Shown: one piece after another, positions 21,878-37,167 of the stretch | Layout of the letters: each line of letters begins with the position of its first letter | Numbering within the stretch: position 1 is the stretch's first letter | Source: Fodinibius halophilus | GTDB taxonomy: Bacteria; Bacteroidota; Rhodothermia; Balneolales; Balneolaceae | Assembly: GCF_011059105.1 (NCBI RefSeq) | Contig: NZ_JAALLS010000006.1 | Location: 1-64,000 of the forward strand | Direction of reading: 5' to 3' | DNA: 64,000 nt | Position numbers and translations under genes: made by a program | The notes under the pieces: generated by a model | Databases searched by the model: none | What the model was told of the DNA's origin: nothing | The model's input: the letters and a program-made list of their open reading frames with translations, nothing else

Positions 21878-22720
21878 ATGAGATTTTTAAAAGAAATTAT
21901 TCTGTTCGTCTTATTTTTGCTTTTCATATCTGTAAGGGGCAATGCCCAAATGGAGCGTCAACGAGCAAATGTAACAGAACCGGTAGAAACGTTTTGGACT
22001 CCTACCCTGATTTCACAAACTACAACAGAAACTCTGCAAGCACGGAATCTCAATTCCACCATCATGCACAGTTTCGGTATTGCAACAACTAATGCAATAC
22101 AAAATTTCTTTGGGCTAGATAATATTCAAAATGTCCGTTTGGGATTAGATTATGGAATAACCGATCAGTGGGCTGTAGGAATTGGGCGCTCTTCCCGATT
22201 CAATGTAGTTGACATACGTACTAAATATGCTATCATGCAACAAACTACAGATAACTCAAAACCTCTGAGTGTTGCCCTCAAGGGAGATTTGGGCATTATT
22301 ACCCAAGAAAACAGGCAACCTTTCAAAGATGATGTCAGTATCCTACTATCAGCAATTGTTTCTAAGAAATTTAATCAAACTCTTAGTCTACAGTTATCCC
22401 CGATGTATGGATATTATAGCTCTGTGGGCGCAGGGCAAGAGAATCATCTCTTCTCTTTGGGGGTGGGCTCTCGTATTACCCTTTCGGAACGTTATTCCCT
22501 TATTGCTGAATACTACCCAGTCATTGGTAAACGAAATAGTGATACTAATAACGCTTTTTCACTGGGTTTAAATATTCAAACCGGCGGCCATGTTTTTCAG
22601 TTATTCTTCGCCTCTACACGTTGGCATCTTGAACAATATGTTATTGCTAACAATAGAGAGCAGTTTTGGGCCGGTGACTTTCGATTCGGTTTCAATGTTA
22701 ACCGTATATTTGGCCTCTAA
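21878..22720 (+). CDS. Outer-membrane beta-barrel protein, DUF5777 family
   Basis: This 280-residue outer-membrane protein has a signal peptide ending near GNAQM. The rest is amphipathic beta strands: ARNLNSTIMHSFGIATT near the start, VRLGLDYGITDQWAVGIG in the middle, and a terminal strand ending in FNVNRIFGL. These match the DUF5777 family as I remember it. It is the last gene of the cytochrome-YceI-DUF5777 set, starting 3 bases after the YceI stop. Its end overlaps the convergent TM2 gene by 4 bases. The function is not known; a channel or an assembly partner for the lipoprotein are both possible. Confidence 0.85.
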   Translation: MRFLKEIILFVLFLLFISVRGNAQMERQRANVTEPVETFWTPTLISQTTTETLQARNLNSTIMHSFGIATTNAIQNFFGLDNIQNVRLGLDYGITDQWAVGIGRSSRFNVVDIRTKYAIMQQTTDNSKPLSVALKGDLGIITQENRQPFKDDVSILLSAIVSKKFNQTLSLQLSPMYGYYSSVGAGQENHLFSLGVGSRITLSERYSLIAEYYPVIGKRNSDTNNAFSLGLNIQTGGHVFQLFFASTRWHLEQYVIANNREQFWAGDFRFGFNVNRIFGL

Positions 22721-23061
22721 TCAAGAAGGGCAACTACATCTTGTGCAACACCTCTATTGTACTCAAAGGCTAAATTTTTGTAGTTAATAATATCCACAAT
22801 GGTACCAATACCACAAAGACCAACTGTTAAAAGATAAAGAATACCCATACCAATCTGGCCAATAATAAAACGATGCACACCAGCTGCTCCAAAAAAACCA
22901 ACAAGAGCAGTAAATAAAATAATCTGAGGTTCTTTGCGGCGGGCTCTATAAACGCGGGCAAAACGCTGTGCTCGTTCATCATCCATCGACGATAAAAGCT
23001 TAGCAATATATGCTCCTTCATCGCCCTCTAATTCAGGTAAATAATCAATCATTCGAGCCAT
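22717..23061 (-). CDS. TM2 domain-containing membrane protein
   Basis: This 114-residue membrane protein has a charged N-terminal ~45 residues and then the TM2 domain. Two helices are separated by a short turn, with the recognisable GFFGAAGVHRFIIGQIGMGI start and LLTVGLCGIGTIVDIINYK end. The function of bacterial TM2 proteins is not established. The gene overlaps the end of the DUF2752 gene by 17 bases, so the two are translationally coupled. TM2 and DUF2752 proteins frequently travel together in this phylum, as far as I recall. Confidence 0.9.
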   Translation of the reverse strand: MARMIDYLPELEGDEGAYIAKLLSSMDDERAQRFARVYRARRKEPQIILFTALVGFFGAAGVHRFIIGQIGMGILYLLTVGLCGIGTIVDIINYKNLAFEYNRGVAQDVVALLD

Positions 23062-23374
23062 AATAACTGTTGTTTGTTTCGTTAGGTGTGACTTTAGTAT
23101 ATATCAAATATCCTATTCTTCCAATTAAAATAATAATAGCAAACGGGCCTAATATATTTGACTGCATGGCATTATCGATATTTCCATCAAAAGTATAAGC
23201 GATAGAATGCCCCAACCCATCACCCGGACAAAACGAAATTCCGAGCTGCTCAAAAACACATAATCCGGGTCCGTTTGCTATTTCAGGATCCATAAAAGCA
23301 AGTAAAAGTAAGCCCGCGGTAAAAGCGGCTATTTCAAAGTAATTTTTAAAAAGATATTTGAGCTGTTCTTTCAT
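23045..23374 (-). CDS. DUF2752 membrane protein
   Basis: This is a small membrane protein of 109 residues with two to three helices. The central block GPGLCVFEQLGISFCPGDGLGHS holds a pair of cysteines and the C-P-G-D-G-L-G-H-S motif of DUF2752. The second helical part (LGPFAIIILIGRIGYLIY) is also typical. The function is unknown. It overlaps TM2 and starts 44 bases after the end of the large Pel-type lipoprotein gene. It could be the tail of that transcript or a separate two-gene unit. Confidence 0.88.
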   Translation of the reverse strand: MKEQLKYLFKNYFEIAAFTAGLLLLAFMDPEIANGPGLCVFEQLGISFCPGDGLGHSIAYTFDGNIDNAMQSNILGPFAIIILIGRIGYLIYTKVTPNETNNSYYGSND

Positions 23375-23417: not shown

Positions 23418-26400
23418 TTATTTATCCAACGCTCGGGGGAAAATATATGAAATACTCAAACTCAAGCTATTATAGCGATATATCTTGCTTGTAGAAAGAT
23501 ATCCATTCAACGAAAGACTCCAATAATCATTAACCTGGGCTTTAACGGTTCCCGTGGCAGCTAAAAAGGTGCCATCCCTGTTACTATGTTTTCCCAGAAT
23601 CTCGATTCGACTTGTAAAGGACGGATCAGTACGCTCATTTTTATAATTCAAGTCTATTCCCACTCCTTTTACGAAAAGATTGTCAGGTGTATAGTATGGT
23701 ACTCCCCTAAGATAACCTACCTTTGAATTAGCATACGAGATATCTGCCAGCGGTCGTATCCCAGCCAAGTCATTTGCAAACGGAATTTCATAATAAAGCT
23801 TCAACAGCCCTTCATAGGAATAGTTATTGTCACTGTACCAATTCGCATTCAGTGAAAGAGTTGTCTGGAAACGGTTACTAATCCAGTAATCTTCCCGATA
23901 GATAGCCCCTTTTATTTTATTGATATCCTGCTGTAATCCCGAATTAGTAAATACCGGCTGAAACTCCAGATCAATAGAGGTATACGTAGAATCTTCTGCG
24001 AACCAATATCCTGCCTGTAAACCCGGTTTAATAGCATTGTTTTCACTATATATTCCACCTCCTATTTTTAATTGACTGGCTTGACTATTAAAACTCTTTC
24101 GCCACTGATATTTAACATTATATAAATAGTCTAATCTATTGTTATTTAATGTCTTAGAACTTACGTATCGATCATTTAGAGATACCTTATGAATAACATT
24201 TCTCCGATCACCCCATTCTCCGAAAAGGCCTAGTGACCCAGTGTTATTATCAAAGTTATCGGATGTAAATGATGCTTCAGACCCAGCTCGAAACCCTTCA
24301 TTCTTTCGATAGTTATCTGATATTGATTGGGCTAAACTATCAGAAAAGAAAGCAGGATATTGCCTGTAGAAAGACTTTTGCTTTTCATATCCCATATAAC
24401 CGACTTCATTGTGTACCAGCTGCCGACTCTGTTGTGAAGCTTTATTCTTAGTAAAAAGGGGATACAGCGTACTATATCCCTTATCCCTGAACTCTGCATA
24501 GATAAGCTGTTGCCCAACGTATGTACGCAGTGAATCGTTTTCCGGTGATTGTTCCAGGTATTGAGTGCTACGATCTATAAATGCTTTATACCGCTGTTGC
24601 TGCATCAACCACCCGAGCTCTGTTTCTTTAGCAATACTATCAGTTTTTTGCGCCCACATGCCGGCCCGGGTCAACTGGTTTTTCTCTGCATATCGATACG
24701 CAATCTGGTCGGCATATGTATCTAACTGCTCCTCAACAAAGGCTGAATCCGGAAAAGACTGTAATAATGTAATGGTCTGATCTGCATCGGCGTAAAAAAT
24801 TGATTGTTCAATGGCGTAACCGTACAATGAATCAGAATTGGGATTCAGCTCAATTAATTCTTTAATATATTTTTTCCGCTTTTCCCATGTATCGGACTCT
24901 TGCAACAACGTTTTTAGTAGTTCAGGATCATCAGGTGACAGATTATAGGCCCTTTGCAACCATTGGTCCTGAAACTTTTGATCCGGTATCCCAAACCGAT
25001 CAGTAACCATATCTTTAAACTTCAGTATTGATGAATCCCGGTACTTTTCCCAAAGCTTTTCTGTAAACGTATACGCCCGATCAGCAGCTCCCTCCCATCC
25101 GTAGTACTTCAGTAACCTGGCAATATCCTTCGTATACCAATTCCCATCATTCATCAACTGCCGTTCTAATACGGTAATCGCTAATGGTGTTCTATCAAAT
25201 TCAATAGCCAAAGAAATAACCTTTTCTTTTAGCTTGCGATTATTGGGCTTATTACTATAAGCTGCTAATGCCTTATCCAAACGTTCATCTCTCCACTGCT
25301 GAGTCTCTTCTATTTCGTCGGCGGGAGGATTCAAATACTCCTCATACTCCTTCTTTATATTAGAGACGAGTTGCTCCCTGTTGGTACTGTCCCCGGACTC
25401 TAAGACAGGCATTTCAAGGGTATCAGCAGTTGTTTTAAACTGATATAAGACCCCATCCCACAATGGCGAGCGTTCAAATGTTATGTTTGAAGCAGCCAAT
25501 GCATTCTCTACGGTAGATTGGTTCTCTTCACTCACATAACTAAACCAATATTGTACCTTATTTTTGGCAAACCTCCGGTCCAGGGGAAGGGTTGAAACCT
25601 TTAACACATTATCTGAAAATTCATATCGACTATATGTATTCAACCAACGTTGTGCAATCGGAGCCGCATCTTTTACAGCTCGAAACCTGGAAAGAGGGTA
25701 TCGCTCCAGGGTTTCATCCAAACGACGTTTAAACACCTCATATAATCCAAAATCATACTCTTCATTACTGTGCCACCCCAATCCCCGTGGATTTCTACTG
25801 CGGAACTTATCGTAAGAGCGTTTTTTTACTTGGAATACATCATCAGGATGGACAAAATGGGTCCATATACCGGTAATAAGAAAGAGATTATTCTGATTAA
25901 AATTGGATGCATCGCTATTCACATAACCACTTGTTATTCGGGGGTAATCAAAGAGCTCAGGTGCAAAGGGTTCCGGTCCGAACTCACGATCGCCCCCTTC
26001 CTCAAAGCTACCCAGGTAGATTGAACTCATATATTTGACACTCGGCAACGTCAGAGAAACAGCTTGTAACCCCAATGAATCAATATTATTGGTCGGCGGT
26101 ACATACGATACGGGAAAATCTCCCAGATTATCTATCCGCCAGCGCTTTTTTACGGCCTGGAGAGAGGCCTGCATAAACTGAATATTATCCCAATCCTCTT
26201 TCCAAAGAGAAAAGTGGTTATACCCATGCAATCCCAGTTCGTGGCGGGAGTCACGAATATCACGGGCGATCCAGGCACTGGCATTCTGCTGTTCTCCGTC
26301 AACCATTAACTTCCCGAATTTCCACTCTTTAAAATCGAAAGGCGGTACAACAACTGCATTGTAGTTAAACGCTATTACCGCTGTATAGTCCATATCATAG

Positions 26401-27281
26401 TTATTAGCCAACTCCTTCATCTCCGGCCACCATATACGTGCTACAAAATCAGCATGTGTTGTATCATATTCCTCATCTACAGGTTCTAACTTTTCGTTAT
26501 ACAGCGGGGCCGGGAAGTCATCCAAAAATATGGTACTTACATTTGCAACCCGGTAGGGTATGCCTTCTAGGGCTTTTAATCCTGTAGAAAACAATAATCC
26601 CCTGTAGCTTTTATCCGTCATTACCGTAGTATTAAAGTAGATAGCGCGCCCTTTCCCTACCTCTCTTTCTATAATAGCGGGATAATCCCGATCGGATGAT
26701 GCTGTGGCCAACACCGCCTTTTCATCAACGAAGTATTCCCCACCAAAACCATTATGAATAAAGGTAGCCCTGTTTTGATATTGCTCACCTTTGTAATGGG
26801 GAAAGATATGTTCCTGAAATACAAACCCTTCGGCTTGTTTATTCAGCTGTGGATCGGTTCTTGGATCGATACCGGTAAAATATTGAAACCGTTCATCGTA
26901 CAGGGGAGTTAATATTACTATCTCTCCCCCTTCGGCCACAAACTGCAGTAGTCGTTCAACTTCCTGATCCTCGATCTGTTCAACACGATCCGTTGTAAGA
27001 TATAATAGCTTTATGGATTCCGGGATTGTTAATTGCGAAGCTCCCAAAGTAAAATCAAAGGTTTGGTAGGGTATTTTAGCATACTCCAATGCATGGGTTA
27101 CATTGGAATTAATTGAGATGGAGGATGAATCAAACCGGTTTTTTACGACCATTGCCAATGGCTCCGACTCCTCAAAGTTCGGTATTTCCGTTTTCGAGTC
27201 CGATGAACATCCCCATCGGCAGCCACTTATAGTAGCTACAATCAAAATAACGGCACACAAATGAGGGCCTAGCCTATTCAT
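23418..27281 (-). CDS. Pel-type lipoprotein: PelA-like deacetylase module fused to TPR and outer-membrane barrel (PelA/PelB-like fusion)
   Basis: This lipoprotein of 1287 residues (ATG at 27279-27281) has the lipobox ISGC near residue 21. Residues ~35-245 form a Rossmann-like domain (KLLYLTTDRVEQIED, GRAIYFNTT). Residues ~250-540 form a deacetylase-like NodB fold, with LDDFPAP giving D254/D255, HGYNH giving H352/H356, and WTHFVHPDD giving H475/H478. A beta-rich part (~550-630) follows, and then TPR-like helices (~660-960). The last ~280 residues look like an outer-membrane barrel ending in SISYIFPRALDK. This combines the PelA deacetylase half (DUF2194/CE18-like) with the PelB TPR-porin. It would deacetylate the polymer and export it through one polypeptide. 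Family roles are known; the fusion reading is inferred. Confidence 0.8.
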   Translation of the reverse strand: MNRLGPHLCAVILIVATISGCRWGCSSDSKTEIPNFEESEPLAMVVKNRFDSSSISINSNVTHALEYAKIPYQTFDFTLGASQLTIPESIKLLYLTTDRVEQIEDQEVERLLQFVAEGGEIVILTPLYDERFQYFTGIDPRTDPQLNKQAEGFVFQEHIFPHYKGEQYQNRATFIHNGFGGEYFVDEKAVLATASSDRDYPAIIEREVGKGRAIYFNTTVMTDKSYRGLLFSTGLKALEGIPYRVANVSTIFLDDFPAPLYNEKLEPVDEEYDTTHADFVARIWWPEMKELANNYDMDYTAVIAFNYNAVVVPPFDFKEWKFGKLMVDGEQQNASAWIARDIRDSRHELGLHGYNHFSLWKEDWDNIQFMQASLQAVKKRWRIDNLGDFPVSYVPPTNNIDSLGLQAVSLTLPSVKYMSSIYLGSFEEGGDREFGPEPFAPELFDYPRITSGYVNSDASNFNQNNLFLITGIWTHFVHPDDVFQVKKRSYDKFRSRNPRGLGWHSNEEYDFGLYEVFKRRLDETLERYPLSRFRAVKDAAPIAQRWLNTYSRYEFSDNVLKVSTLPLDRRFAKNKVQYWFSYVSEENQSTVENALAASNITFERSPLWDGVLYQFKTTADTLEMPVLESGDSTNREQLVSNIKKEYEEYLNPPADEIEETQQWRDERLDKALAAYSNKPNNRKLKEKVISLAIEFDRTPLAITVLERQLMNDGNWYTKDIARLLKYYGWEGAADRAYTFTEKLWEKYRDSSILKFKDMVTDRFGIPDQKFQDQWLQRAYNLSPDDPELLKTLLQESDTWEKRKKYIKELIELNPNSDSLYGYAIEQSIFYADADQTITLLQSFPDSAFVEEQLDTYADQIAYRYAEKNQLTRAGMWAQKTDSIAKETELGWLMQQQRYKAFIDRSTQYLEQSPENDSLRTYVGQQLIYAEFRDKGYSTLYPLFTKNKASQQSRQLVHNEVGYMGYEKQKSFYRQYPAFFSDSLAQSISDNYRKNEGFRAGSEASFTSDNFDNNTGSLGLFGEWGDRRNVIHKVSLNDRYVSSKTLNNNRLDYLYNVKYQWRKSFNSQASQLKIGGGIYSENNAIKPGLQAGYWFAEDSTYTSIDLEFQPVFTNSGLQQDINKIKGAIYREDYWISNRFQTTLSLNANWYSDNNYSYEGLLKLYYEIPFANDLAGIRPLADISYANSKVGYLRGVPYYTPDNLFVKGVGIDLNYKNERTDPSFTSRIEILGKHSNRDGTFLAATGTVKAQVNDYWSLSLNGYLSTSKIYRYNSLSLSISYIFPRALDK

Positions 27282-29328
27282 CAAACATTGTATTTCTTTT
27301 TCCTGGGTAAATATGAAACAAAATATCTTTCACTTTTGATTCGGTGGGACGATTTATGATTTCGTACACCCTTGTAGAAGGCCCATCATAAAAAACACTG
27401 ACCTTTCTGTCAGGCAATTTTTCAAAATCTGCCAGCCACTGCTCTAAATCACGCATTACTGCCGGTGAATCGTATAAAATACCCTGCTGAATATTTCCAT
27501 AAGGGGCTTTTTCTGTAAACACAAATATTGAGGCCGGGGGTACCACCTCAACAGACGTTGAGGTTAACTGTTGTTGGTACAACGAGTCGATAGCGCCGTA
27601 TTCATCAAGAAAATATTCATAATCCATATAAAAGTGCCTGTTTTTGGCCTGTATCCTCTGTACTTCGGGCCCCACCGTAGCATAAGAGTACGGTAATCGC
27701 TCATCAATAACCTGGTAATAGGCTTCAAAAAAACCATTGGGCATGGTAGAAGGTAATACTCTACTTACTCTAATCCCACCCTGCAAGTAGATTAGGCTTG
27801 CGATCATCCCCACTAATAACACCCATGATATACTATAAACGGTGGATTCTGCAAGGTTGATCAATCGATCACATATCTCAAAAACTACTGCTATCATTAA
27901 ACATGCCAGAACCCCTATCATGAGGGCATATAGCTCGTTCAGTTGGGCCGTATCAAGCCAAAAGAGTGCCGCAAAATCAAGCACCGGGGTATATCGTAAG
28001 GCGATAACAATAAAAACCAGTACGAAAATGATTTCATCGCGAACCGAAGAACTATCTTTTAAGAAATAATCAATGATATAATAGCCCAATAGTCCACCCG
28101 CAATCATTATGTACACCTTACTTAGCTCCTGAATGGGAGAGATCAATTCCGGGAAATAGCTGTAGGCCTGAATGTCGTAAAGTTGAGATAATAAAAAGGA
28201 TTGGGGCTCGGTGCCCTGAAAGTAGCCATAGATGATAAATGGCAACAAAATGATAATTACCAAGCTTACCAGATATAAGGAAAGCCTCAAAAAGGATTTA
28301 AAATATCTTCTTCGGGGCAAGGTCAATAATCCCAGAAATGAAAGGGGTAAGAGTATAACAAAGGCAACAAACAAATTAGTAAATCCCGTTGCTATAAAGC
28401 CAGAAAAGATGTAGAACCATGGACTTTTATAGGTGGCCCGGAGGTTTCGGATAAAAATAGTGAGCGTTGGCAATGCAAAACAAAGAGCTAAATCAACGCT
28501 ACTGGCTTCTACCTGTTGATCTAAAGAAACAGGTAAGAATAACATTGGAACTACAGCATACAGTGACATCCCAATAATGGGTGCAAAGGGATACCTGTTT
28601 TTAGTGATGTCCCGGGAAATCCAATAGACAATAATACACAGGAAAAAACTTGTGAGTGCACCCAGCAGATGCAATATCATTTCCGGGCTTACCTGCGTTA
28701 ACATACTAAAAACGCTGACCAAGGAATGCATCCCACCCGGCACAGGGGCCTCGGTGAAATAGTTCTGCAACCTCATTTCCTTGATGCGATTAAGCTGATC
28801 AAACCACCCCCGGCTAAAAGGAGAAGCATTTTGCAGGGCCGGATACATCCGAATAAGACCACCTGCAAGGGCGATACCAAACACCAAAAACCAATGCCCT
28901 CCCTCACTGACCTCAATGGTGAATATATTTTTTACCTTCGCCTTAAGAACCTGCCAATAAGAGTTTTGATCGTCTTCAATTACTTGCACCTGCCTGATGA
29001 GGGATTGCAGTTCCCAATTTTGAATATACTCACTTAGGCTGTTGGCATCACTACGATACAGGTGCACAATAAACGGAACCAGCAGTAACATGACTGCCAA
29101 GCTTATAAAATCATATATGTGAAATATGGTGAGAATAAAAACCGAAATAATAATCCCCCCTCCGAGTCCAATCCATGAATAGATAAGCTTTTCAATATTG
29201 GGCAGTGTTTTAGTGTGGGATAAAAAAAGTGGGGCGATAAAACCAAACAGCAACACGAATGCAATTACAATGCGCCCTGCTGCAAATAAAGCTTCTACCA
29301 CATATGGCAACTGAGTAAATACGTCCAC
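27274..29328 (-). CDS. Multipass membrane protein of the Pel-like locus, possibly GT-C type
   Basis: This inner-membrane protein of 684 residues has roughly 13-14 helices, followed by a soluble C-terminal region of ~140 residues (about 545-684) on the periplasmic side. I do not recognise a named family. The large loop SRGWFDQLNRIKEMRLQNYF and the general plan of many helices plus a C-terminal soluble domain recall GT-C glycosyltransferases or O-antigen-type modifying enzymes. The start is GTG at 29326-29328. It overlaps the PelA/PelB-like gene by 8 bases and follows the hydrolase gene by 31. It occupies the place where PelD/PelE membrane components would be expected, but no similarity to them is evident. 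Confidence 0.6.
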   Translation of the reverse strand: MDVFTQLPYVVEALFAAGRIVIAFVLLFGFIAPLFLSHTKTLPNIEKLIYSWIGLGGGIIISVFILTIFHIYDFISLAVMLLLVPFIVHLYRSDANSLSEYIQNWELQSLIRQVQVIEDDQNSYWQVLKAKVKNIFTIEVSEGGHWFLVFGIALAGGLIRMYPALQNASPFSRGWFDQLNRIKEMRLQNYFTEAPVPGGMHSLVSVFSMLTQVSPEMILHLLGALTSFFLCIIVYWISRDITKNRYPFAPIIGMSLYAVVPMLFLPVSLDQQVEASSVDLALCFALPTLTIFIRNLRATYKSPWFYIFSGFIATGFTNLFVAFVILLPLSFLGLLTLPRRRYFKSFLRLSLYLVSLVIIILLPFIIYGYFQGTEPQSFLLSQLYDIQAYSYFPELISPIQELSKVYIMIAGGLLGYYIIDYFLKDSSSVRDEIIFVLVFIVIALRYTPVLDFAALFWLDTAQLNELYALMIGVLACLMIAVVFEICDRLINLAESTVYSISWVLLVGMIASLIYLQGGIRVSRVLPSTMPNGFFEAYYQVIDERLPYSYATVGPEVQRIQAKNRHFYMDYEYFLDEYGAIDSLYQQQLTSTSVEVVPPASIFVFTEKAPYGNIQQGILYDSPAVMRDLEQWLADFEKLPDRKVSVFYDGPSTRVYEIINRPTESKVKDILFHIYPGKRNTMFDE

Positions 29329-29359
29329 AAGAATCAGTTTTTATTAGGCTACCCACCAA

Positions 29360-30208
29360 TTATTGCTGCGTGCTGGATATACCCTTTGAGATATCGTTTA
29401 ACTCTATTGTACTTATAAAATAAGGCATGCCTAATGTATCTAATCTATTTCGTGCCATTCTTTTAAGATCATTAGTTTTAGCAAAATCAACTATCAAAAA
29501 CGGCAGATTATATTTTTGCTTTAACGTAGTGATTTTATCTGCTTTTTCTTGATAAGATTCTTTTGGTCGTAGATGATAATCTTTTCTTTCAAAATTATAT
29601 GCAGTTGCCACATCTTCAATGAGTACTGCATCAATATATTTATGGGTTTTATCGAGCATAAACAGTCCTGCATTTTGTATAACTATAGCCTCCGGATATC
29701 GCTCTTTAATACCTGCAATTACCTCAAGCATGTATGGTTGCAGATGACTGCGTTCTGTATAAGGTGCAACATCATCAACGGTATCTAAAAACAATCCGTC
29801 GTAGCCCTTGACCATGATGTTGGGTAAAACCTTATCAAGTAGAATAGAGCGAGTTGTAGAGTCAGCCAGATTAAGGTAGGGACTGTCCCAGTTTTCATTC
29901 ATCCCGATGAATCCCTGCTCCTCCATCAGAGGATAGTACCACCGATACTTATTAACCTCTCCCAATGATATGTAACCCAACAACGTATTCTCAGAGGTAT
30001 TTAACGTATCAACAGCTGCTTTTGTGTAATTTTCCGGCTCTACAATTAACAGATCATATTTTGAAGCTACCTTTTCGAGAGAAGAGATATGTTCATAACT
30101 GACTGCAAACGGTTCAGGATCTAAGGATTTTCTTGCGGAATCAGTATTCTTACAAGCATCCACTAAAATAGTGATAGCACAAAAAACAATAACTAGCTGT
30201 CGTATCAT
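29360..30208 (-). CDS. PelA-type glycoside hydrolase lipoprotein (endo-alpha-1,4-polygalactosaminidase-like)
   Basis: This exported TIM-barrel hydrolase of 282 residues resembles the N-terminal hydrolase domain of PelA and GH114 enzymes, which cut alpha-1,4-linked galactosaminoglycan. The landmarks are LLIVEPENY, LGYISLGEVNKYRWYYP, KGYDGLFLDTVDD with candidate catalytic D142, and DAVLIEDVATAY with candidate E198. The signal peptide ends in LVDAC (C19), a plausible though imperfect lipobox. The start ATG at 30206-30208 is chosen because it begins at the signal peptide, follows the HD-gene stop by one base and has GAGGG upstream; the longer in-frame ATG at 30256 would not. In classic Pel systems this domain is fused to the deacetylase; here it is separate. 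Confidence 0.85.
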   Translation of the reverse strand: MIRQLVIVFCAITILVDACKNTDSARKSLDPEPFAVSYEHISSLEKVASKYDLLIVEPENYTKAAVDTLNTSENTLLGYISLGEVNKYRWYYPLMEEQGFIGMNENWDSPYLNLADSTTRSILLDKVLPNIMVKGYDGLFLDTVDDVAPYTERSHLQPYMLEVIAGIKERYPEAIVIQNAGLFMLDKTHKYIDAVLIEDVATAYNFERKDYHLRPKESYQEKADKITTLKQKYNLPFLIVDFAKTNDLKRMARNRLDTLGMPYFISTIELNDISKGISSTQQ

Positions 30209-30209
30209 T

Positions 30210-31808
30210 CTAGGTACCCTCACCCAATTCACAAAGGTCATTCCAGCTAAAGTCATTAAGCATTTCTACTGCTGTAGGTATCAGAATCATATCAAACTGG
30301 ATATCAGCCCGCTCTATAAGCATAGATGTCAGTTCATCCAGCCAATCTTCGCCTGTTTTAGAATCGTTACCTTTATTGCTTTCGATAAACTGTGCGATAA
30401 ACTCAAACAATCCAACGACTTTACCCGTCCATACAATTTCATCGCCTTCAATACCATTGGGGGTTCCCGAACCATCAACCCATTCATGGTGGGTGCTTAT
30501 ACCCTGCTTTATATTTTCGTTCAGCGATAAATGTCTCACAAGCTTATATCCCAGCACGGGATGTTCCAGATCTGATCCTACAGTTCGTTTTTTAGCGTTT
30601 TGACGAAGACTCAAATACCCAATATCGTGTAGTTTAGCTGTCATCAGTATATTTTCTTTTTCCTCTTCTCCCATTCCAAAATAATCACCAAACGCATTAC
30701 ATAGAGCCATCACCCGGTCGGTATGATGGGCCGTTTTATCTCTTTTCTGCTCAATTTCTCTGAGCATTTGATAATAAGTTTCGGTGATTCGACTGGTGAT
30801 GTGTTTATTTTGATCCTGATAACGAAGTAGCTGCAACAGGGTTTCTATAATAACATCATAGTTTACCGATGATTTAAACGTCTCTTTCTGCTCTCCCTTG
30901 AGTGTAAGAACCAAAAATACACTCGGTGACAGCGTATTCAACGGCTCAATAACCAACTGATCCTCTCCATCATGCAGATCCAACTGATCTTCCAGATAGT
31001 CCGTAAGATCCTCGACACTTTCTTTATCCCCATCGAAATACTGAATATTGGCAACAAAGTTATCAGCCATATTCGCTTTTGCCACTACCTTTGGCTCGCT
31101 GAGATCGACCAAGGCCGCCGATTCCGCCCCTTTAACGCCTGTTAGGTGCCCAAGCAATACATTGGCATAGCCAGTAATTTCAAGCCCCTCAGACTCCAAA
31201 GAGCTAAGCTCTTCCTCTAATCCCCTTCCCGTTGTCTCCGTTTTGGCATCTTGTTTATCACACTCAGTCAACCATTTCGAAAGAATACGTCCAATTATAG
31301 AGAGACGCGGAATGATACCACTGGGATTCTCCACATACGGCCCCGTGCAATACATCCCACAGAATTCATCCTCATTAAAGAGGGGAATACGGTGACAGTG
31401 TCCGATGGGAAAAGAGGCCCCTCCCATCTCTTTCATCTCCTCACTGATAACTACCCTTTTCTCCAGGTTATCGAGACGGCGTTCAAATTGTGCAACCTTT
31501 TCACTTCTTTCAGTGCTGTTCAGCTTACTAAGTGAAAATTTACTTTCCAGGTTTTCAGTAAGTACCGAACGGTGCTGAAGTTTTAACTTTCCCTTTTCGT
31601 CTTTGAGATATACAAAGTGAACAGGAGCATTGTACAATATATCCATCCACTCAGCAGTTTCATGAAATTTTGGGCTATCACTTCGTGATAAATACTCAGC
31701 TGCTAAAGCCCAAAACTCCAGTTCATCTTCCAACTCAAAATCTTCAAGTGAAAAAGCGGAACCTAATCTCTTGGCAATGGTCTGTACGTAGCTTTTAACA
31801 TCTTTCAT
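30210..31808 (-). CDS. GAF-like / HD-GYP-like regulator of the Pel-type locus
   Basis: This is a cytoplasmic protein of 532 residues. Residues ~1-190 and ~195-340 look like two GAF-type sensor modules (GHCHRIPLFNEDEFCGMY in the first). Residues ~355-500 form an HD domain with KLHDIGY (H394, D395) and HHEWVDGSGTP (H440, H441, E442), close to the HHExxDGSGYP signature of cyclic-di-GMP phosphodiesterases. The GYP triplet is GTP here. The later VxDxxDAL-type segment is replaced by VVGLFEFIAQF, and the RPYR-like motif is missing, so catalysis may be altered. Pel synthesis is classically switched on by cyclic-di-GMP through PelD, which is absent here. A regulatory role for this protein is inferred. 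Confidence 0.8.
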   Translation of the reverse strand: MKDVKSYVQTIAKRLGSAFSLEDFELEDELEFWALAAEYLSRSDSPKFHETAEWMDILYNAPVHFVYLKDEKGKLKLQHRSVLTENLESKFSLSKLNSTERSEKVAQFERRLDNLEKRVVISEEMKEMGGASFPIGHCHRIPLFNEDEFCGMYCTGPYVENPSGIIPRLSIIGRILSKWLTECDKQDAKTETTGRGLEEELSSLESEGLEITGYANVLLGHLTGVKGAESAALVDLSEPKVVAKANMADNFVANIQYFDGDKESVEDLTDYLEDQLDLHDGEDQLVIEPLNTLSPSVFLVLTLKGEQKETFKSSVNYDVIIETLLQLLRYQDQNKHITSRITETYYQMLREIEQKRDKTAHHTDRVMALCNAFGDYFGMGEEEKENILMTAKLHDIGYLSLRQNAKKRTVGSDLEHPVLGYKLVRHLSLNENIKQGISTHHEWVDGSGTPNGIEGDEIVWTGKVVGLFEFIAQFIESNKGNDSKTGEDWLDELTSMLIERADIQFDMILIPTAVEMLNDFSWNDLCELGEGT

Positions 31809-31819
31809 AATTATAAAAT

Positions 31820-33448
31820 CTAAAATGCAGAATAGTAGTAGTAATCTAAGTTTTGAAAAAATCTCTTGGCCATTATGCCGGATACGAGCGCAAAACAGAT
31901 TGCCCCGGCCAACAAACCGATGGCAGCATATTCGAGCGCAAAAATTCGGCTACAGATATATCCGACAAAAAAGTTTGCCGCTAATCCTGCCAACATTGAA
32001 TACATCGAATATTTGGGTTTATGTAAGGTGAAAAAGAATAGAGTATGCAGCAAGCCAATATTTAAAAAAATATATGATATACTGGCAATCCAGAACACCT
32101 TGGTTGTCATAGGGTTCGCAAAAAAGTCACGGATTTCCGGAATTTCATTTTCAAAAACCCGTAAACTTATTACGGAATAATAGGTAAGGGCTATTGAAAC
32201 TGCGCTCACTATTAATAATAGTAATACTTGACGAAAATAAAACCTCTTGTAGAATTTATTAAACGAATTTAGTTCACTGAATTTTGCTTTCTTTTGTAAC
32301 GGCACTAAGTAGTTAGAAAATGCTTCTACGCTATATTCCAGTACTGCCACGCTTAAAACAAGAGTCAATAGTGCCCAATCCATCCCCAGTTCATAGGGAG
32401 TGTTAAACCAGATAATATATGGCGGAGGTGGTGGACCGGCCGACCATGCCAGAATTCGATCCAGAAAAAGAAAGAGAAAATATCCCAATCCATAAACAAA
32501 ATAGCGATAGTTAATATAATAGCGTACCTCCGGTTTGGTTAGCGACTGTTCAATATTCTCATCGGCACTAAACCGTATTTTGAGCTTAAAAAAGAGGTAG
32601 GCATAGCCATATAACATGGCTGTGGTTAATGCCATAGCCAACCACTGAGAGAGATATATGCCCATATCCATTACCTCCATATTGAATAGGACAACAAAAG
32701 TTCCAACTACAATAATTACTAATATTGGTATTTGCTGTTGCAAGGCATATAAAACACCGGATCCCAGCAGAAGCAGGCTAATCAAGACCATATAGATTAG
32801 TCCCAATAAAATCATGGCCTGGGGGTAAAAAGGGATAAGTAAATTAATTATGAAAAAGACCAAAGAAGCAATAAAAACCGTTGCAACACCCACACTCAAG
32901 ATCTGTTTGGCTGCTTCAAAAGCCAAAAGATAGTTATTATTACTCTTATGGGTTGTAACAGATCTACCTAATACCTGGATAAATCCACCGGTAATTACAA
33001 AGGCGGTAATAGTACCAAAAGCAACAACAGTGGCCTGGGCTTCATTGAACTCCAACCATGCCCATAATGAATATCTGAAAATAATAACCGCTGCAATCTG
33101 GCTCAGCATGGGCAACGAAAAGAGTAATCCCTTACCATAATAAAAGCAAAAGAATTTTAGCTGCTCCCAAAAACCGGTCGTTCCTATCTTTGCATCCAGT
33201 TCCTCATCTACTTCTTCCTCACTTTGCCGCGCTTCCTTTTTCAGTTCGTCATAAATTTCATCGGCAAGCTCAAATATAGAATCATAACCGAAATCTTGCT
33301 TTACATCTACCTCGCGAACCCCGATAGATTCAATTGTTGCAGCTACTGCCCGGGTGCTTAGCGGATTACCAAGCAGATCTTTAACCTCCTTTTTGAGCTC
33401 ATCAACCGAATCAATGGTTGCGCTTTCTATGTCGGGGGATTCAGCCAT
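31820..33448 (-). CDS. pelG: PelG, Pel exopolysaccharide inner-membrane transporter
   Basis: PelG is the membrane protein thought to move the growing Pel polymer across the inner membrane. This copy has 542 residues with about 12 helices. The C-terminus LDYYYYSAF is a strong PelG hallmark, and KFFCFYYGKGLLFSLPM near the first helix also fits. An extra cytoplasmic N-terminal stretch of about 110 residues (two helical blocks around KKEVKDLLGNPLSTRAVAAT and GYDSIFELADEIYDELKKEA) is longer than expected for PelG. ATG at 33446-33448 is chosen because GAGGAGG lies about 9 bases upstream. It overlaps pelF by 8 bases and precedes the HD gene by 11. Confidence 0.92.
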   Translation of the reverse strand: MAESPDIESATIDSVDELKKEVKDLLGNPLSTRAVAATIESIGVREVDVKQDFGYDSIFELADEIYDELKKEARQSEEEVDEELDAKIGTTGFWEQLKFFCFYYGKGLLFSLPMLSQIAAVIIFRYSLWAWLEFNEAQATVVAFGTITAFVITGGFIQVLGRSVTTHKSNNNYLLAFEAAKQILSVGVATVFIASLVFFIINLLIPFYPQAMILLGLIYMVLISLLLLGSGVLYALQQQIPILVIIVVGTFVVLFNMEVMDMGIYLSQWLAMALTTAMLYGYAYLFFKLKIRFSADENIEQSLTKPEVRYYINYRYFVYGLGYFLFLFLDRILAWSAGPPPPPYIIWFNTPYELGMDWALLTLVLSVAVLEYSVEAFSNYLVPLQKKAKFSELNSFNKFYKRFYFRQVLLLLIVSAVSIALTYYSVISLRVFENEIPEIRDFFANPMTTKVFWIASISYIFLNIGLLHTLFFFTLHKPKYSMYSMLAGLAANFFVGYICSRIFALEYAAIGLLAGAICFALVSGIMAKRFFQNLDYYYYSAF

Positions 33449-35012
33449 ATTCCACAACCTCCTCTAATAATCTATTCACAGAAGGCAATTGCACCTCATT
33501 ATATTTGGGAATATGCTTTTGTTCATGAAAAGACTGGTAGAGATTGCGATAGTTTGTTACAGATTTCGAAATGGTGTACTTGAGCAGTACTCTTGACCGG
33601 GCCTTTTGCCCAAGTTCTATTCGAAGGTCATCATCTTCTAAAAGTTTTATAACTCCATCTGCTAAATCCCTGGCATTTCTAGGTTTACACAAAACGCCGC
33701 ATCCCTCAACTGCTTCTCTTACCCCCCCCACATCGGTTGCCACCACAGGACGTGAACAGCTCATAGATTCTAGCACCGTGTATGGAAACCCTTCTGATAT
33801 TGAGCTTAAAATTGATATATCTCCCTCGTTAAATATTTTACTGGGGGTATCGTGATACCCTCCAAATTCAAAATGGTCTTCCAGATCCAGTTCTTCAACC
33901 AAGTCTTTGCACTTCTGTACATAGGCCTTATCGACCTCTAAACTACCATAAATAATATATTGGACATTCGGCACATCGCGACGAACAAGCTCACAAGATC
34001 GAATCATCGTTTCAATATCTTTCAACGGAAACACATGTGCCACGGCAACAACGGTAGGGCGATCCCGGGTATGCTTTGGCTTTTCTTTCGGCCTGAAGAG
34101 ATCAGCATCTACCCCATTATAGATAGGCCTGATGCGATTTTCTGTAGCTTCATATTTCTTCTCCCATTTTGCATTGATGGACGTTACCGGGGCAATACGG
34201 TCTGCAAAGTGATAAACTGTTCGCGTTATAAATGTAGCCATATTTATCAACAACCTTTTCGAAAAGTAAGAGATATCTGCTTGGCTAACATTGATTAAAC
34301 GCTCGCGAATGTATACCCCATGATCGGTGACCACCATGGGGGTACCATATTCAAATTTTGCTGCGATAGAAGAAATAGCCGGAAAACCCGCCATTGTCGC
34401 ATGCGTAGCACTTACCTCCGGTATATCTACTGCCAATGGCATCATGAAGTGATAGATCCAACGCATACCGAAAGTCACATCCAGCACTTTTGGATGTTCA
34501 CTCGGGCTATAATCACCCATCTCCTCAAAATGTTGTTTGAGCCGTTGTTTAAATATTTTCCATAATAACGGGTGCCCAAGGGTCTTTTTATAATCGTACC
34601 GTTGAAAAAACTTCCAAAATCCATAAATAAGCTCTCCTGATTCCCGGGCAGATTGAAAAGGATCAAAAAGGTGATCCAAAAAACGGCGATACATCGGCAA
34701 AAAGAGCTGCTTGATAACTTCGCTTGATGTTTGTGACTTCTTTAACAGATGTTCCGAAAATGGACGACTTTCATCAAAATAACTTACAGGCTCTTCAACT
34801 CCCCACAAAGGAACATGAATAATAGATTTTATATTAGACATTCTTCGATATCGAGGCTCTACATAAGGACTTCCTGTGAGGGCCATGATAACAAAATCAA
34901 TCTCATCCACTAATTCAGTACATAAAATATGGGCCCAGGTAGACACCCCTCCACCGGAATACGGATAGGAACCCTCAGTCTCGAGCAATATGGTAGGTTT
35001 AGATTTATCCAT
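33441..35012 (-). CDS. pelF: PelF, GT4 glycosyltransferase of Pel exopolysaccharide
   Basis: PelF is the cytosolic glycosyltransferase that polymerises the Pel backbone from a UDP-activated amino sugar. The 523-residue protein opens with ILLETEGSYPYSGGGVSTWA, the DUF3492-type PelF N-terminus. It has the GT-B fold with the retaining GT4 motif EGFPYTVLE (E407 and E415), followed by VVATDVGGVREAV. The length is close to known PelF proteins. It overlaps both neighbours (8 bases with pelG, 8 with the upstream glycosyltransferase gene), showing tight translational coupling. AAAGGAG lies 11 bases before the ATG. Confidence 0.93.
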   Translation of the reverse strand: MDKSKPTILLETEGSYPYSGGGVSTWAHILCTELVDEIDFVIMALTGSPYVEPRYRRMSNIKSIIHVPLWGVEEPVSYFDESRPFSEHLLKKSQTSSEVIKQLFLPMYRRFLDHLFDPFQSARESGELIYGFWKFFQRYDYKKTLGHPLLWKIFKQRLKQHFEEMGDYSPSEHPKVLDVTFGMRWIYHFMMPLAVDIPEVSATHATMAGFPAISSIAAKFEYGTPMVVTDHGVYIRERLINVSQADISYFSKRLLINMATFITRTVYHFADRIAPVTSINAKWEKKYEATENRIRPIYNGVDADLFRPKEKPKHTRDRPTVVAVAHVFPLKDIETMIRSCELVRRDVPNVQYIIYGSLEVDKAYVQKCKDLVEELDLEDHFEFGGYHDTPSKIFNEGDISILSSISEGFPYTVLESMSCSRPVVATDVGGVREAVEGCGVLCKPRNARDLADGVIKLLEDDDLRIELGQKARSRVLLKYTISKSVTNYRNLYQSFHEQKHIPKYNEVQLPSVNRLLEEVVEYG

Positions 35013-36207
35013 TATATAACGGGGACTCCTTTAACAACAAATCAAACACTCCGCGATATCGCTTAAAAATATTCTCCCAAGTATGCTGCTCAGCTAATAA
35101 CAGGGACTTTTCACGAATATATCTTTCCCATTTATATGGACGATACCATAACTCTAACGTTTTGCGCAGCAATTTATTAGAATCTACACCTTTATTTATT
35201 ATCAGGGCATATTTTTCTGTAACGTCACCTGCTTGCCATCCGATAGGCAACACTCTGCGTGCCAATGCCTCAAATAGTACCAATGGCTGTGATTCATTAT
35301 GGCTCGTTATGCATAGGGCATCCATTTCATCAATATAATTCTCAGTAGATTGATTCCAGATGAGTTCTAATTCGGAATATTGCTTACTTTTTTTCTTCAC
35401 CCCCCCTGCTAATTCCGGTTCATTAGCGTCGCAGCAGAGCATAAGAAACTGTATATCAGCAATCTCCATCTGGCGAGCGGCATCGACCAACTCAAAGAAC
35501 TTCATAGGATTCTTCATTTCAGCGCATCGCCCTACCCATCCTATTGTCAGGGGGTCCTGATGGCTTTTGTGCTCTTTTAACCAACTCGCTGGAATCCCGT
35601 TGGGAATATACATCACATCATCTGCCCCCATATTCTGTTGTTCCGTAATATTGCACTCTGAAACAGAAACAGTAATATCAGCTGCGAGATAGATATCCCT
35701 CGCCATGCTTTTAAACATTTGTACGTACTGTTCCTTCTTTCCCCTGTTATCGGGAATTTTATATCCACACTCCAGTGCAACGGCCCCCATATCAACCTCC
35801 TTCCAATAGAGGGCGTGTTCGGTAAGCAAAAGAGGTTTATTGGTATCTTCAGCCCACTCTTTTCCCAACCAGCCGGCAAAACCGGTATTAGCGATATGTA
35901 CAAAATCACATTGATTTACCAGCCGACTCGTTTTTTCCCTTAGCCGGTTTTTCCACCGGTACGACTCAACCTGCCAGTCTTTCCGCAAATCCGGGGGCGG
36001 AATACGACAAAAGGAATGCACATGCTCCGGAATTTGATATAATGCTTCTGAGACCTGGGCATTTAGATACTGGTCTGTTGCAACCTGCAGAATATGAAAG
36101 TTCTGGTTTGGGCAGTTTTGAATATATTGGTGAACCCATTCGCTCACGCCCCCCCGGTACCAAGGATAAGTTCCTTCTATAACCAATAATATATCCGTGT
36201 TGCTCAT
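35005..36207 (-). CDS. Second PelF-like GT4 glycosyltransferase
   Basis: This cytosolic GT-B glycosyltransferase of 400 residues is a shorter paralogue of the adjacent PelF. Both start with the same type of block (LLVIEGTYPWYRGGVSEWVH here), and both have the GT4 glutamate pair, ESQPLVLFE (E305 and E313). It lacks about 120 residues of the PelF middle region. Because catalytic glutamates and the donor-side block IGWVGRCAEMKNP are present, it is probably active, perhaps adding a second sugar type. Its stop overlaps the PelF start by 8 bases, and it begins 27 bases after the response regulator gene. The donor and acceptor are unknown. Confidence 0.85.
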   Translation of the reverse strand: MSNTDILLVIEGTYPWYRGGVSEWVHQYIQNCPNQNFHILQVATDQYLNAQVSEALYQIPEHVHSFCRIPPPDLRKDWQVESYRWKNRLREKTSRLVNQCDFVHIANTGFAGWLGKEWAEDTNKPLLLTEHALYWKEVDMGAVALECGYKIPDNRGKKEQYVQMFKSMARDIYLAADITVSVSECNITEQQNMGADDVMYIPNGIPASWLKEHKSHQDPLTIGWVGRCAEMKNPMKFFELVDAARQMEIADIQFLMLCCDANEPELAGGVKKKSKQYSELELIWNQSTENYIDEMDALCITSHNESQPLVLFEALARRVLPIGWQAGDVTEKYALIINKGVDSNKLLRKTLELWYRPYKWERYIREKSLLLAEQHTWENIFKRYRGVFDLLLKESPLYNG

Positions 36208-36234
36208 AAATAAGGCCCACTGTAAATGAAAAAG

Positions 36235-37167
36235 CTACGACTTGGAATGCATTCGCCATAAAACAGAACCAGTTTGAACTAACAACCGGGAAACCATTTG
36301 ATACTCTTCGGTGGTAAACAATTTGTTTCTTTTTAAAACGAATAGCCCAAACATCTCTGCATCTTCTGGCACTTTCATTTTATTCATCAGTAGCCTTTTT
36401 TCATCCGCAGCAAAAAGGGGAACCGTAATCTCAGAGGAGAGATCATATTTTTTTGAATATTCCTGCATAATTCCCTCTCCTTCTCCAAACACATTATTTG
36501 AAAGATAGGCCTCCCCTTCACTTTGTAATCTTATAAATGTCTCTTCATTCAGCAGATCCTTAGAAAAGTCATATCCATTGGGAGAATAATTATATAAATC
36601 ACAAATAAGTTGGGGAACGCCATCTCCCGTTATTTCACAGAAAGCGATATAATCTAAATTGAACTGCTCAAAAATATCGCGGCAAAGATCCTTAACAAGC
36701 GTCTGAAAGTCGCTATTCCGGGCATCAGACATAATTTTTTTGATTAATCTATTCTTCCGTTGTACCAGATCACCCACTTCCGGAACAACTACATTAGTAA
36801 TCAGTTGTAGTTTTATGGTCTCGAGCAATTCATCGTGATTATTAATGACTTCAGATTTGTTAATTACTTCAGCTGCCCCATAATCCAAAGCCTTCTTCTT
36901 TTTCTCTTCTGTAGGCAAATTACTCATTACTAACACCGGAATCTGCTTCTTAAGCGAATCTTTTTTCAAGACCTGTACAAAATCCAGGCCATTTAACCCC
37001 GGCATATATATATCAGCAATTACAAGGTTTATCGGTTCTTTCGATAAAATATCGATACCTTCTTGTGCATCGTAGACATGAATTACCTTATAATCATCGG
37101 ATAAAACTTTATCGATGAAAATATGCATTGGTTTATCATCATCGATTACTAATATTTGATAATCCAT
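36235..37167 (-). CDS. Response regulator with receiver and GAF-like domains, first gene of the Pel-type locus
   Basis: This two-component receiver protein has 310 residues. The N-terminal receiver (1-125) has the acidic triad DDD at 9-11, the phosphoacceptor D52 in IADIYMPGLNG, VLVMSNLP and the K of VINKSE. The second half (about 130-305) looks like a GAF domain (LVKDLCRDIFEQFNLDYIAF, EITVPLFAADE, FGLFVLKRN). There is no DNA-binding or GGDEF domain, so the output is probably protein-protein. It leads the minus-strand gene row and is divergent from the TonB receptor. It may connect a histidine kinase to the HD-domain protein or the synthase; no kinase is in the window. Confidence 0.88.
   Translation of the reverse strand: MDYQILVIDDDKPMHIFIDKVLSDDYKVIHVYDAQEGIDILSKEPINLVIADIYMPGLNGLDFVQVLKKDSLKKQIPVLVMSNLPTEEKKKKALDYGAAEVINKSEVINNHDELLETIKLQLITNVVVPEVGDLVQRKNRLIKKIMSDARNSDFQTLVKDLCRDIFEQFNLDYIAFCEITGDGVPQLICDLYNYSPNGYDFSKDLLNEETFIRLQSEGEAYLSNNVFGEGEGIMQEYSKKYDLSSEITVPLFAADEKRLLMNKMKVPEDAEMFGLFVLKRNKLFTTEEYQMVSRLLVQTGSVLWRMHSKS

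Follow-up and report, generated by a model that had tools for sequence, protein, structure and literature searches.

A Pel-like gene cluster of Fodinibius halophilus with a predicted deacetylase-exporter fusion protein

Results

Organisation of the locus

The stretch of DNA analysed here (the window) comprises 64,000 nucleotides of Fodinibius halophilus (assembly GCF_011059105.1, contig NZ_JAALLS010000006.1, positions 1 to 64,000) and contains, at positions 23418-37167, a cluster of genes resembling those for the exopolysaccharide Pel. The cluster consists of eight genes, all on the minus strand in the open reading frame list of the window, which encode, from 37167 down to 23418: a receiver protein; a short PelF-like glycosyltransferase (GT); PelF; a PelG-like protein; an HD-domain protein; a PelA-type hydrolase; a membrane protein of 684 amino acids (aa); and a 1288-aa protein, followed downstream on the same strand by a DUF2752 gene and then a TM2 gene (Table 1). 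The spacings between neighbours, in this order, are +27, -8, -17, +11, -47, +31, -11, +43 and -17 bases, the last two belonging to the pairs that involve the DUF2752 and TM2 genes; the 47-base overlap between the HD protein and the hydrolase is probably due to the hydrolase frame being called from a start that lies too far upstream. The genome is 98.6% complete. A first-pass annotation of the window had listed Pel-type enzymes on one strand, a PelF paralogue, and an added response regulator and HD-domain protein, all of which were recovered by the family scans (PelG marginally); its gene list missed the 684-aa membrane gene, which lies within the same stretch.

Table 1 Features of the Pel-like locus in the window (coordinates are window positions).
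Feature	Coordinates	Strand	Evidence
Response-regulator receiver protein (310 aa) at the head of the gene set	36235..37167	-	PF00072 65.5 bits; C-terminal GAF PF01590 only E 0.22
Short PelF-like GT4 glycosyltransferase, 400 aa	35005..36207	-	NF038011 95.7 bits, just below cut-off 100
PelF, GT4 polymerase candidate, 523 aa	33441..35012	-	NF038011 164.3 bits, cut-off 100
PelG-like membrane exporter, 545 aa, extra N-terminal domain	31820..33457	-	PF16933 33.2 bits, cut-off 29, residues 114-542
PelG N-terminal extension, about residues 16-75	33233..33412	-	hhalign prob 94.7, E 5.8e-8, 125 columns
HD-GYP-like protein, 532 aa, altered motif	30210..31808	-	PF13487 46.1 bits; 16-row alignment
GH114/PelA-hydrolase-type glycoside hydrolase, exported, 298 aa	29360..30256	-	profile matches to PelA chains
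Polytopic membrane protein, 684 aa, with a predicted GT-C fold and without a family match	27274..29328	-	family scans, predicted model
1288-aa predicted fusion of a PelADA-type deacetylase (DUF2194) with TPR-like helices and a 16-strand outer-membrane barrel	23418..27284	-	DUF2194 235.7 bits, model
DUF2194 region (CBM-like and deacetylase) of the 1288-aa protein	25590..27194	-	catalytic set D255 D256 H353 H357 P397 R449 H479 D481 D482
TPR-like helices, residues 636-996 of the 1288-aa protein	24297..25379	-	DSSP of model; TPR name from fold context and weak PDB matches
16-stranded barrel, residues 999-1281 of the 1288-aa protein	23442..24290	-	model, structural alignment
DUF2752 small membrane protein	23045..23374	-	neighbour in 14 loci of the window's family; not found in f12, f21 loci
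TM2-domain protein	22717..23061	-	neighbour in 14 loci of the window's family; not found in f12, f21 loci

The 1288-aa protein

The strongest and newest point of the system is the fusion in the 1288-aa protein. Its first half is a DUF2194 region, and its profile matched the PDB entry 9zau with an E-value of 2.3e-62 over profile positions 32-563. The string 9ZAU occurs twice in a 2026 paper on PelADA of Bacillus cereus (PMC13254593), in which the enzyme is placed in the new families CE26 and CBM114 and the residues D262, D263, H350, H354, P405, R458, H488, D490 and D491 are discussed. In the alignment as printed we counted an offset of 25 that stays constant, and with it these nine residues correspond to the catalytic set listed in Table 1, which is invariant in all 18 homologues. 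Neither PelA (9cgy) nor any PgaB chain was among the nine PDB matches of the profile at E<=1. On these sequence matches the deacetylase is assigned to the PelADA type and not to the CE21 domain of PelA, and the idea that it is a relocated part of PelA was not borne out.

The AlphaFold model (residues 89-1288, mean predicted local distance difference test score, pLDDT, 81.3; predicted template modelling score, pTM, 0.47, which leaves the packing of the domains unsure) has, behind the DUF2194 region, a run of helices resembling tetratricopeptide repeats (TPR) and then 16 strands as assigned by DSSP. Structural alignment, which for this large model covers the barrel part (model residues 904-1196), placed the barrel next to 4y25 (Z 23.5, root-mean-square deviation (rmsd) 3.0, 272 residues aligned), which we take to be PgaA, BcsC (6tzk; Z 22.3, rmsd 4.0, 307 aligned) and PelB (9h80; Z 20.9, rmsd 3.8, 271 aligned), the next unrelated barrel being CymA at Z 14.7. 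The 16-strand barrel behind TPRs is thus shared with these three exporters, none of which is known to carry a deacetylase domain in its chain. As modelled, the 1288-aa protein joins a PelADA-type deacetylase and a PelB-type exporter in one chain, and the two are encoded in a single frame in 18 of 18 loci. The three parts had been recognised before in a lipoprotein of 1287 residues, a description that stands for the domains; the lipoprotein cysteine was seen by eye in only 12 of the 18 homologues and is therefore not a fixed feature. No earlier report of a PelADA-type deacetylase fused to TPRs and a barrel was found in the open-access literature searched. PelA and PelB of Pseudomonas aeruginosa are two proteins, whose interaction enhances deacetylation (PMC12022489).

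Conservation of the gene set

The distribution of the system was surveyed in 198 genomes of a larger phylum. A profile search found the 684-aa protein in 18 of them, and exactly the same 18 were marked by PelF above its cut-off and by DUF2194 above 200 bits. A core of five genes (PelF, the PelG-like protein, the PelA-type hydrolase, the 684-aa protein and the 1288-aa protein) is present in all 18. The cut-off alone separates these genomes by NF038011, a general GT4 family with some match in all 198; DUF2194 gave matches in 27 genomes at E<=0.001 (19 above its cut-off), the nine beyond the 18 being short and weak (19 to 31 bits). Among 14 control genomes, Thermotoga maritima matched DUF3492 and DUF2194, and Methanocaldococcus jannaschii had a DUF2194 match, which may lie above or below the cut-off. 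The carriers belong to the window's own family (14 genomes) and to two other families, f12 and f21 (two genomes each); presence is patchy, since the system was found in 14 of the 26 sampled genomes of the window's family and in one of three of its genus.

For the genes present, the order PelF, PelG-like protein, HD protein where found, hydrolase, 684-aa protein, 1288-aa protein is kept in 17 further genomes, so that the architecture, as had been anticipated, is maintained within the phylum. The HD protein and the short GT each occur in 16 of the 18 loci, the exceptions being the two f21 loci, in which neither was found. The receiver protein lies at the same position in the other 13 loci of the window's family and in the two f12 loci, where the match covers 104 residues only. 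All 17 loci retrieved from named genomes have the same order, 13 with a set of seven genes and four, from Flavobacteriaceae, with the five-gene core preceded by a second, weakly matching glycoside hydrolase (GH) gene. These genomes are Balneolaceae (including Gracilimonas mengyeensis DSM 21985 and Balneola sp. EhC07), two labelled 'Bacteroidetes bacterium' and the four Flavobacteriaceae; nine are genomes already in the 18, two more are nearly certainly so, and six are additional. They were found with two short peptide patterns, by which distant relatives would be missed and absence outside the phylum is not implied. The f21 loci appear to resemble the four Flavobacteriaceae loci in gene content. 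Taken together, this is a real, conserved and coherent system.

One carrier (G089) has a hydrolase gene broken into two frames of 104 and 168 aa (L052:9454-10317) and a short PelG frame (435 aa), either from sequencing error or from decay; it was left out of the hydrolase and PelG alignments, each of which has 17 rows.

Glycosyltransferases, PelG-like protein and hydrolase

PelF carries K331, E407 and E415, invariant in all 18 sequences; position 326 is H or Q in the 14 rows of the window's family and R in the four f12 and f21 rows. In the short GT an invariant GR precedes its invariant K. The PelG-like protein ends in LDYYYYSAF. Profile comparison of the window's PelG group with four other PelG gave a probability of only 4.5 (E 0.009), yet the two were co-linear over 400 columns. 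A PelG profile built on 11 of the 18 rows returned no matches, missing even the PelG of loci L083, L085 and L087.

The hydrolase profile found the PelA chains 9cgy (E 3.2e-23) and 5tcb (4.4e-23) as its best PDB matches, with TM1410 from 1.1e-10; the designed triosephosphate isomerase (TIM) barrel 7mcd fell between them at 1e-15, so these E-values partly reflect the barrel fold. Residue E214, which corresponds to an alanine in chain 5tsy, is invariant in all 17 rows.

In a PelF tree the ten Bacteroidota-type rows formed one group (support 100/99) with rows from five plasmid loci, two of Deinococcus (L084, L118) and one each of Thermus (L086), Streptomyces (L119) and Kocuria (L120), apart from the PelF of Paraburkholderia, Sulfitobacter/Paracoccus and Cetobacterium. 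The tree contains 10 of the 18 PelF, five of the 16 short GT and nine of 18 plasmid records chosen by us; it is rooted at the midpoint, has several long branches and an uneven make-up of rows, and the tool warns of false joins. The N-terminal domain of the window's PelG is common to the PelG-like proteins of the same four genera (Table 1). The assignment of PelF and PelG to the Pel family stands as far as the cut-offs go, with the reservations that PelG is marginal and that PelF groups apart from the four other genera. The sequence relationships would fit a polymerase and inner-membrane exporter from one branch, a deacetylase from the PelADA branch and an outer-membrane exporter from the PgaA/BcsC/PelB branch.

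All five plasmid loci pair PelF with a PelG-like protein and carry genes annotated as endo alpha-1,4 polygalactosaminidase (GH114); those of Streptomyces and Kocuria also encode spherulation-specific family 4 proteins. The Agd3 families were above cut-off in the two Deinococcus proteins, one of the two families was above it in Thermus, and both were below it in Streptomyces and Kocuria. In this combination of PelF, PelG, polygalactosaminidase and Agd3-like genes the five loci resemble the fungal galactosaminogalactan cluster. A plasmid locus of Cetobacterium somerae, a diderm member of the Fusobacteriota (L085), has the order GH114-type gene, GAF protein, DUF2194, hypothetical protein, PelF, PelG.

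The 684-aa membrane protein

No Pfam family matched the 684-aa protein at E<=1, and the NCBIfam scan and the PDB search by sequence profile gave one chance-level match each. Its predicted model (pLDDT 71.6, pTM 0.66) was aligned over residues 134-660 with proteins of the GT-C superfamily, which we take to include STT3, PglB, PMT and ArnT: a chain of the yeast oligosaccharyltransferase (8agb_A; Z 20.6, rmsd 4.6, 435 residues aligned), Pmt4 (9i5l_A; Z 17.1, 346), PglB (3rce_A; Z 16.6, 429) and ArnT (5ezm; Z 15.9, 413). The tool cautions that models made of helices may score Z 13 or 14 through a common arrangement, and the first ten structural matches, all oligosaccharyltransferases, exceed this background; Foldseek was more modest (best E 3.7e-4, three matches at E<=0.001). 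A GT-C fold is therefore predicted for this protein. The loop at residues 166-199, placed by our own reading of the model, has no invariant acidic residue: E178 is present in 15 of 18 sequences and replaced by Q in the window, which has D177, and by N in the two f21 rows; E216 and D459 are invariant elsewhere. The protein shares the predicted fold with the superfamily and differs from it in this loop and in having no sequence family.

The protein may be a chain-decorating transferase or may belong to the export complex without being catalytic, with a slight lean towards the second. Kinship with the roughly 700-aa 'hypothetical' proteins whose genes adjoin pelF in the five plasmid loci was considered and appears not to hold: these proteins match the Agd3 families, above cut-off in Deinococcus and in part in Thermus, below it in Streptomyces and Kocuria, and in two of the five loci (L084 and L086) the 684-aa profile found nothing at E<=0.01.

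Regulatory genes and absence of PelC, PelD and PelE

HD-GYP phosphodiesterases carry the motifs HDIGK and GYP with a full set of metal ligands. All 16 rows of the HD protein have HDIG[Y/L], G[TSAM]P and, for the last metal-binding Asp, E; three of them also have Q for one His. Against the PDB the protein gave five matches at E<=1, all of them HD-domain phosphohydrolases, including phosphodiesterases of cyclic GMP-AMP (cGAMP) and of cyclic di-GMP (c-di-GMP); a relationship with PelD is accordingly unsupported.

The first-pass annotation had seen no PelC, PelD or PelE, which holds for the locus. No further gene, lipoprotein or otherwise, that could stand for PelC lies inside the core of the 18 loci, since the core holds no additional gene at all, and none of the ten window proteins shows the layout of PelD (membrane helices, GAF, degenerate GGDEF) or PelE by family and hydropathy scan. 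As canonical yardstick we used a plasmid locus of Paraburkholderia graminis (L083), with PelA, PelB, PelC and PelE named by gene order and not by record labels. The PelD_GGDEF family (PF16963) was found in this plasmid and had no match in the window's genome, a weak test because the same family fails to pick up the Cetobacterium record, in which the place of PelD is taken by a GAF protein. Queries with the P. graminis proteins in the places of PelC (labelled LpoB) and PelE (labelled hypothetical) matched nothing at E<=1, either in the genome of the window or in the Cetobacterium record; both searches are weak, the one for PelC having used a single-sequence query. The PelD of B. cereus is itself missed by sequence tools (PMC7112168).

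Sixteen of the 18 carriers, the window's genome among them, gave no GGDEF match, and EAL domains were matched in none of the 18; the same searches were positive in 8 and 6 of 14 known genomes and in the Cetobacterium record. Control by c-di-GMP is therefore unlikely in those 16, cyclases of another kind being possible. For Streptococcus intermedius a Pel system without c-di-GMP has already been proposed, in which PelD is still needed (PMC12345266).

Neighbouring genes

Upstream of the receiver gene a plus-strand gene begins in the window, where 10 of the 13 other loci fetched from the family have a second receiver gene; in the remaining three the fetched stretch ends nearby. The one scanned among these ten (L049:1988-3127) is a receiver-histidine kinase hybrid. 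No other exopolysaccharide-like genes were seen in the 64-kb window when the starts of the frames were read by eye, without a family search of those frames; by the same reading, the start of a 991-aa frame at 46654-49629 resembles that of a large multi-pass membrane protein of glycosyltransferase type.

Discussion

Comparison with known systems

With the canonical pelABCDEFG operon of Pseudomonas the locus shares PelF, PelG, a PelA-type hydrolase and a PelB-like combination of TPR and 16-strand barrel; it differs in lacking PelC, PelD and PelE at the locus, in having the hydrolase as a separate gene, and in a deacetylase of the PelADA type joined to the exporter. With the Gram-positive pelDEADAFG and pelAH genes, as described for B. 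cereus ATCC 10987 (PMC7112168, PMC13254593), it shares a separate PelADA-type deacetylase (9zau), a PelAH-type hydrolase, PelF and PelG. Here, however, the deacetylase appears to be joined in one chain with TPR-like helices and an outer-membrane barrel, neither PelD nor PelE is seen at the locus, and GT-C-fold, HD and receiver proteins are added. The Pel system of S. intermedius, in a group reported to have no known diguanylate cyclase homologue, resembles the locus in doing without c-di-GMP, as is likely here, and differs in its need for PelD (without GGDEF) and PelE (PMC12345266). The split of PelA had been taken as the mark of a distinct architecture; the architecture is indeed rearranged, but separate PelADA and PelAH are known from the Gram-positive systems (PMC7112168, PMC12345266), so the split is not the new point. 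What is new is the deacetylase-TPR-barrel fusion as modelled, the protein of predicted GT-C fold and the likely lack of c-di-GMP control.

Proposed function and alternative explanations

We propose, with a probability of roughly 0.7, that the genes form one operon for an exopolysaccharide of the alpha-1,4-galactosamine type. PelF would polymerise uridine diphosphate N-acetylgalactosamine (UDP-GalNAc) in the cytoplasm, probably with the short GT as its helper, and the PelG-like protein, beside the GT-C-fold protein, would carry the chain over the inner membrane. Deacetylation would take place in the periplasm, by the DUF2194 head of the 1288-aa protein, whose TPR stalk and 16-strand barrel would pass the chain over the outer membrane, so that one polypeptide would serve both modification and export; the separate hydrolase would trim the polymer, and the receiver protein and altered HD protein would exert control in place of PelD and c-di-GMP. 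To what was computed (a conserved set of genes, the types of their domains, the conserved catalytic residues, the barrel fold, and no GGDEF or EAL matches in most carriers) the scheme would add co-transcription, the identity of the polymer, the order of events, the regulation and a role for the GT-C-fold protein. Going further, and tentatively, the locus may represent a third Pel-type architecture, in which the deacetylase, held covalently in the outer-membrane exporter, removes the need for the PelC ring, and in which the unit of PelD, PelE and c-di-GMP is replaced by the GT-C-fold protein in the secretion complex together with the receiver protein and the altered HD-domain receptor.

Several observations weigh against this proposal. 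The galactosamine product is a prediction from computation. The family match of PelG is marginal by both bit score and profile comparison, and the f21 PelG (L064) matched no Pfam family at E<=1. The barrel is about as near to PgaA and BcsC as to PelB, so the fold alone does not name the substrate, and PelF groups with loci that bear a different, Agd3-like deacetylase, so the polymer may differ from Pel. Two of the 18 carriers, both in f12, have GGDEF matches (six each), and the searches behind a genome-wide absence of PelC, PelD and PelE are weak.

That the product is a galactosaminogalactan-like or other mixed polymer, with the locus as a Bacteroidota branch of a wider PelF family to which the Deinococcus, Thermus, Streptomyces and Kocuria loci also belong, is a real possibility, though a doubtful one, and it overlaps with the proposed function, both polymers being of the alpha-1,4-galactosamine type. 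The well-supported PelF group, the PelG N-terminal domain common to both sets, and the GH114 annotations, spherulation-specific proteins and (in Deinococcus and partly Thermus) Agd3 matches of those loci speak for it; the deacetylase and hydrolase of the window match Pel enzymes best, no Agd3-like or spherulin-4 match was found among the ten scanned proteins, and the tree is open to the false joins noted above.

A plain canonical Pel system is rejected, with PelC, PelD and PelE not at the locus and a deacetylase of another family. It is unlikely that this is an ordinary pel operon with PelC, PelD and PelE encoded at other places in the genome or too diverged to be recognised: a PelD of the B. 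cereus type escapes sequence searches (PMC7112168) and PF16963 overlooks the Cetobacterium GAF protein, but no locus protein combines membrane helices and GAF, the PelC- and PelE-place queries were empty in the genome, 16 of 18 carriers are without GGDEF, and deacetylase and exporter share a frame throughout. A system resembling that for poly-N-acetylglucosamine (PNAG), with a borrowed PelF-like enzyme, finds a point in its favour in the top barrel match, presumably PgaA, but the Z differences from BcsC and PelB are small, the polymerase candidates of the cluster are GT4 proteins of PelF type, the deacetylase matches 9zau and no PgaB, and the hydrolase matches PelA; on synthase, deacetylase and hydrolase this reading is rejected as highly improbable.

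Significance

The locus represents a variant of the Pel/galactosaminogalactan-type systems, its product being predicted from its enzymes. How deacetylation of Pel is coupled to export, and why a PelC ring is needed, has been called unclear or puzzling (PMC12022489, PMC12141448). That a Pel-type deacetylase and the exporter occur naturally as one chain, at a locus without PelC, argues independently for joint action of the two and offers a simpler system for testing this coupling. The 684-aa protein is a new component, whose predicted fold handles lipid-linked sugars in other systems. Finally, in diderm bacteria too a Pel-type polymer may not require c-di-GMP, as is suggested by the carriers in which neither GGDEF nor EAL domains were matched.

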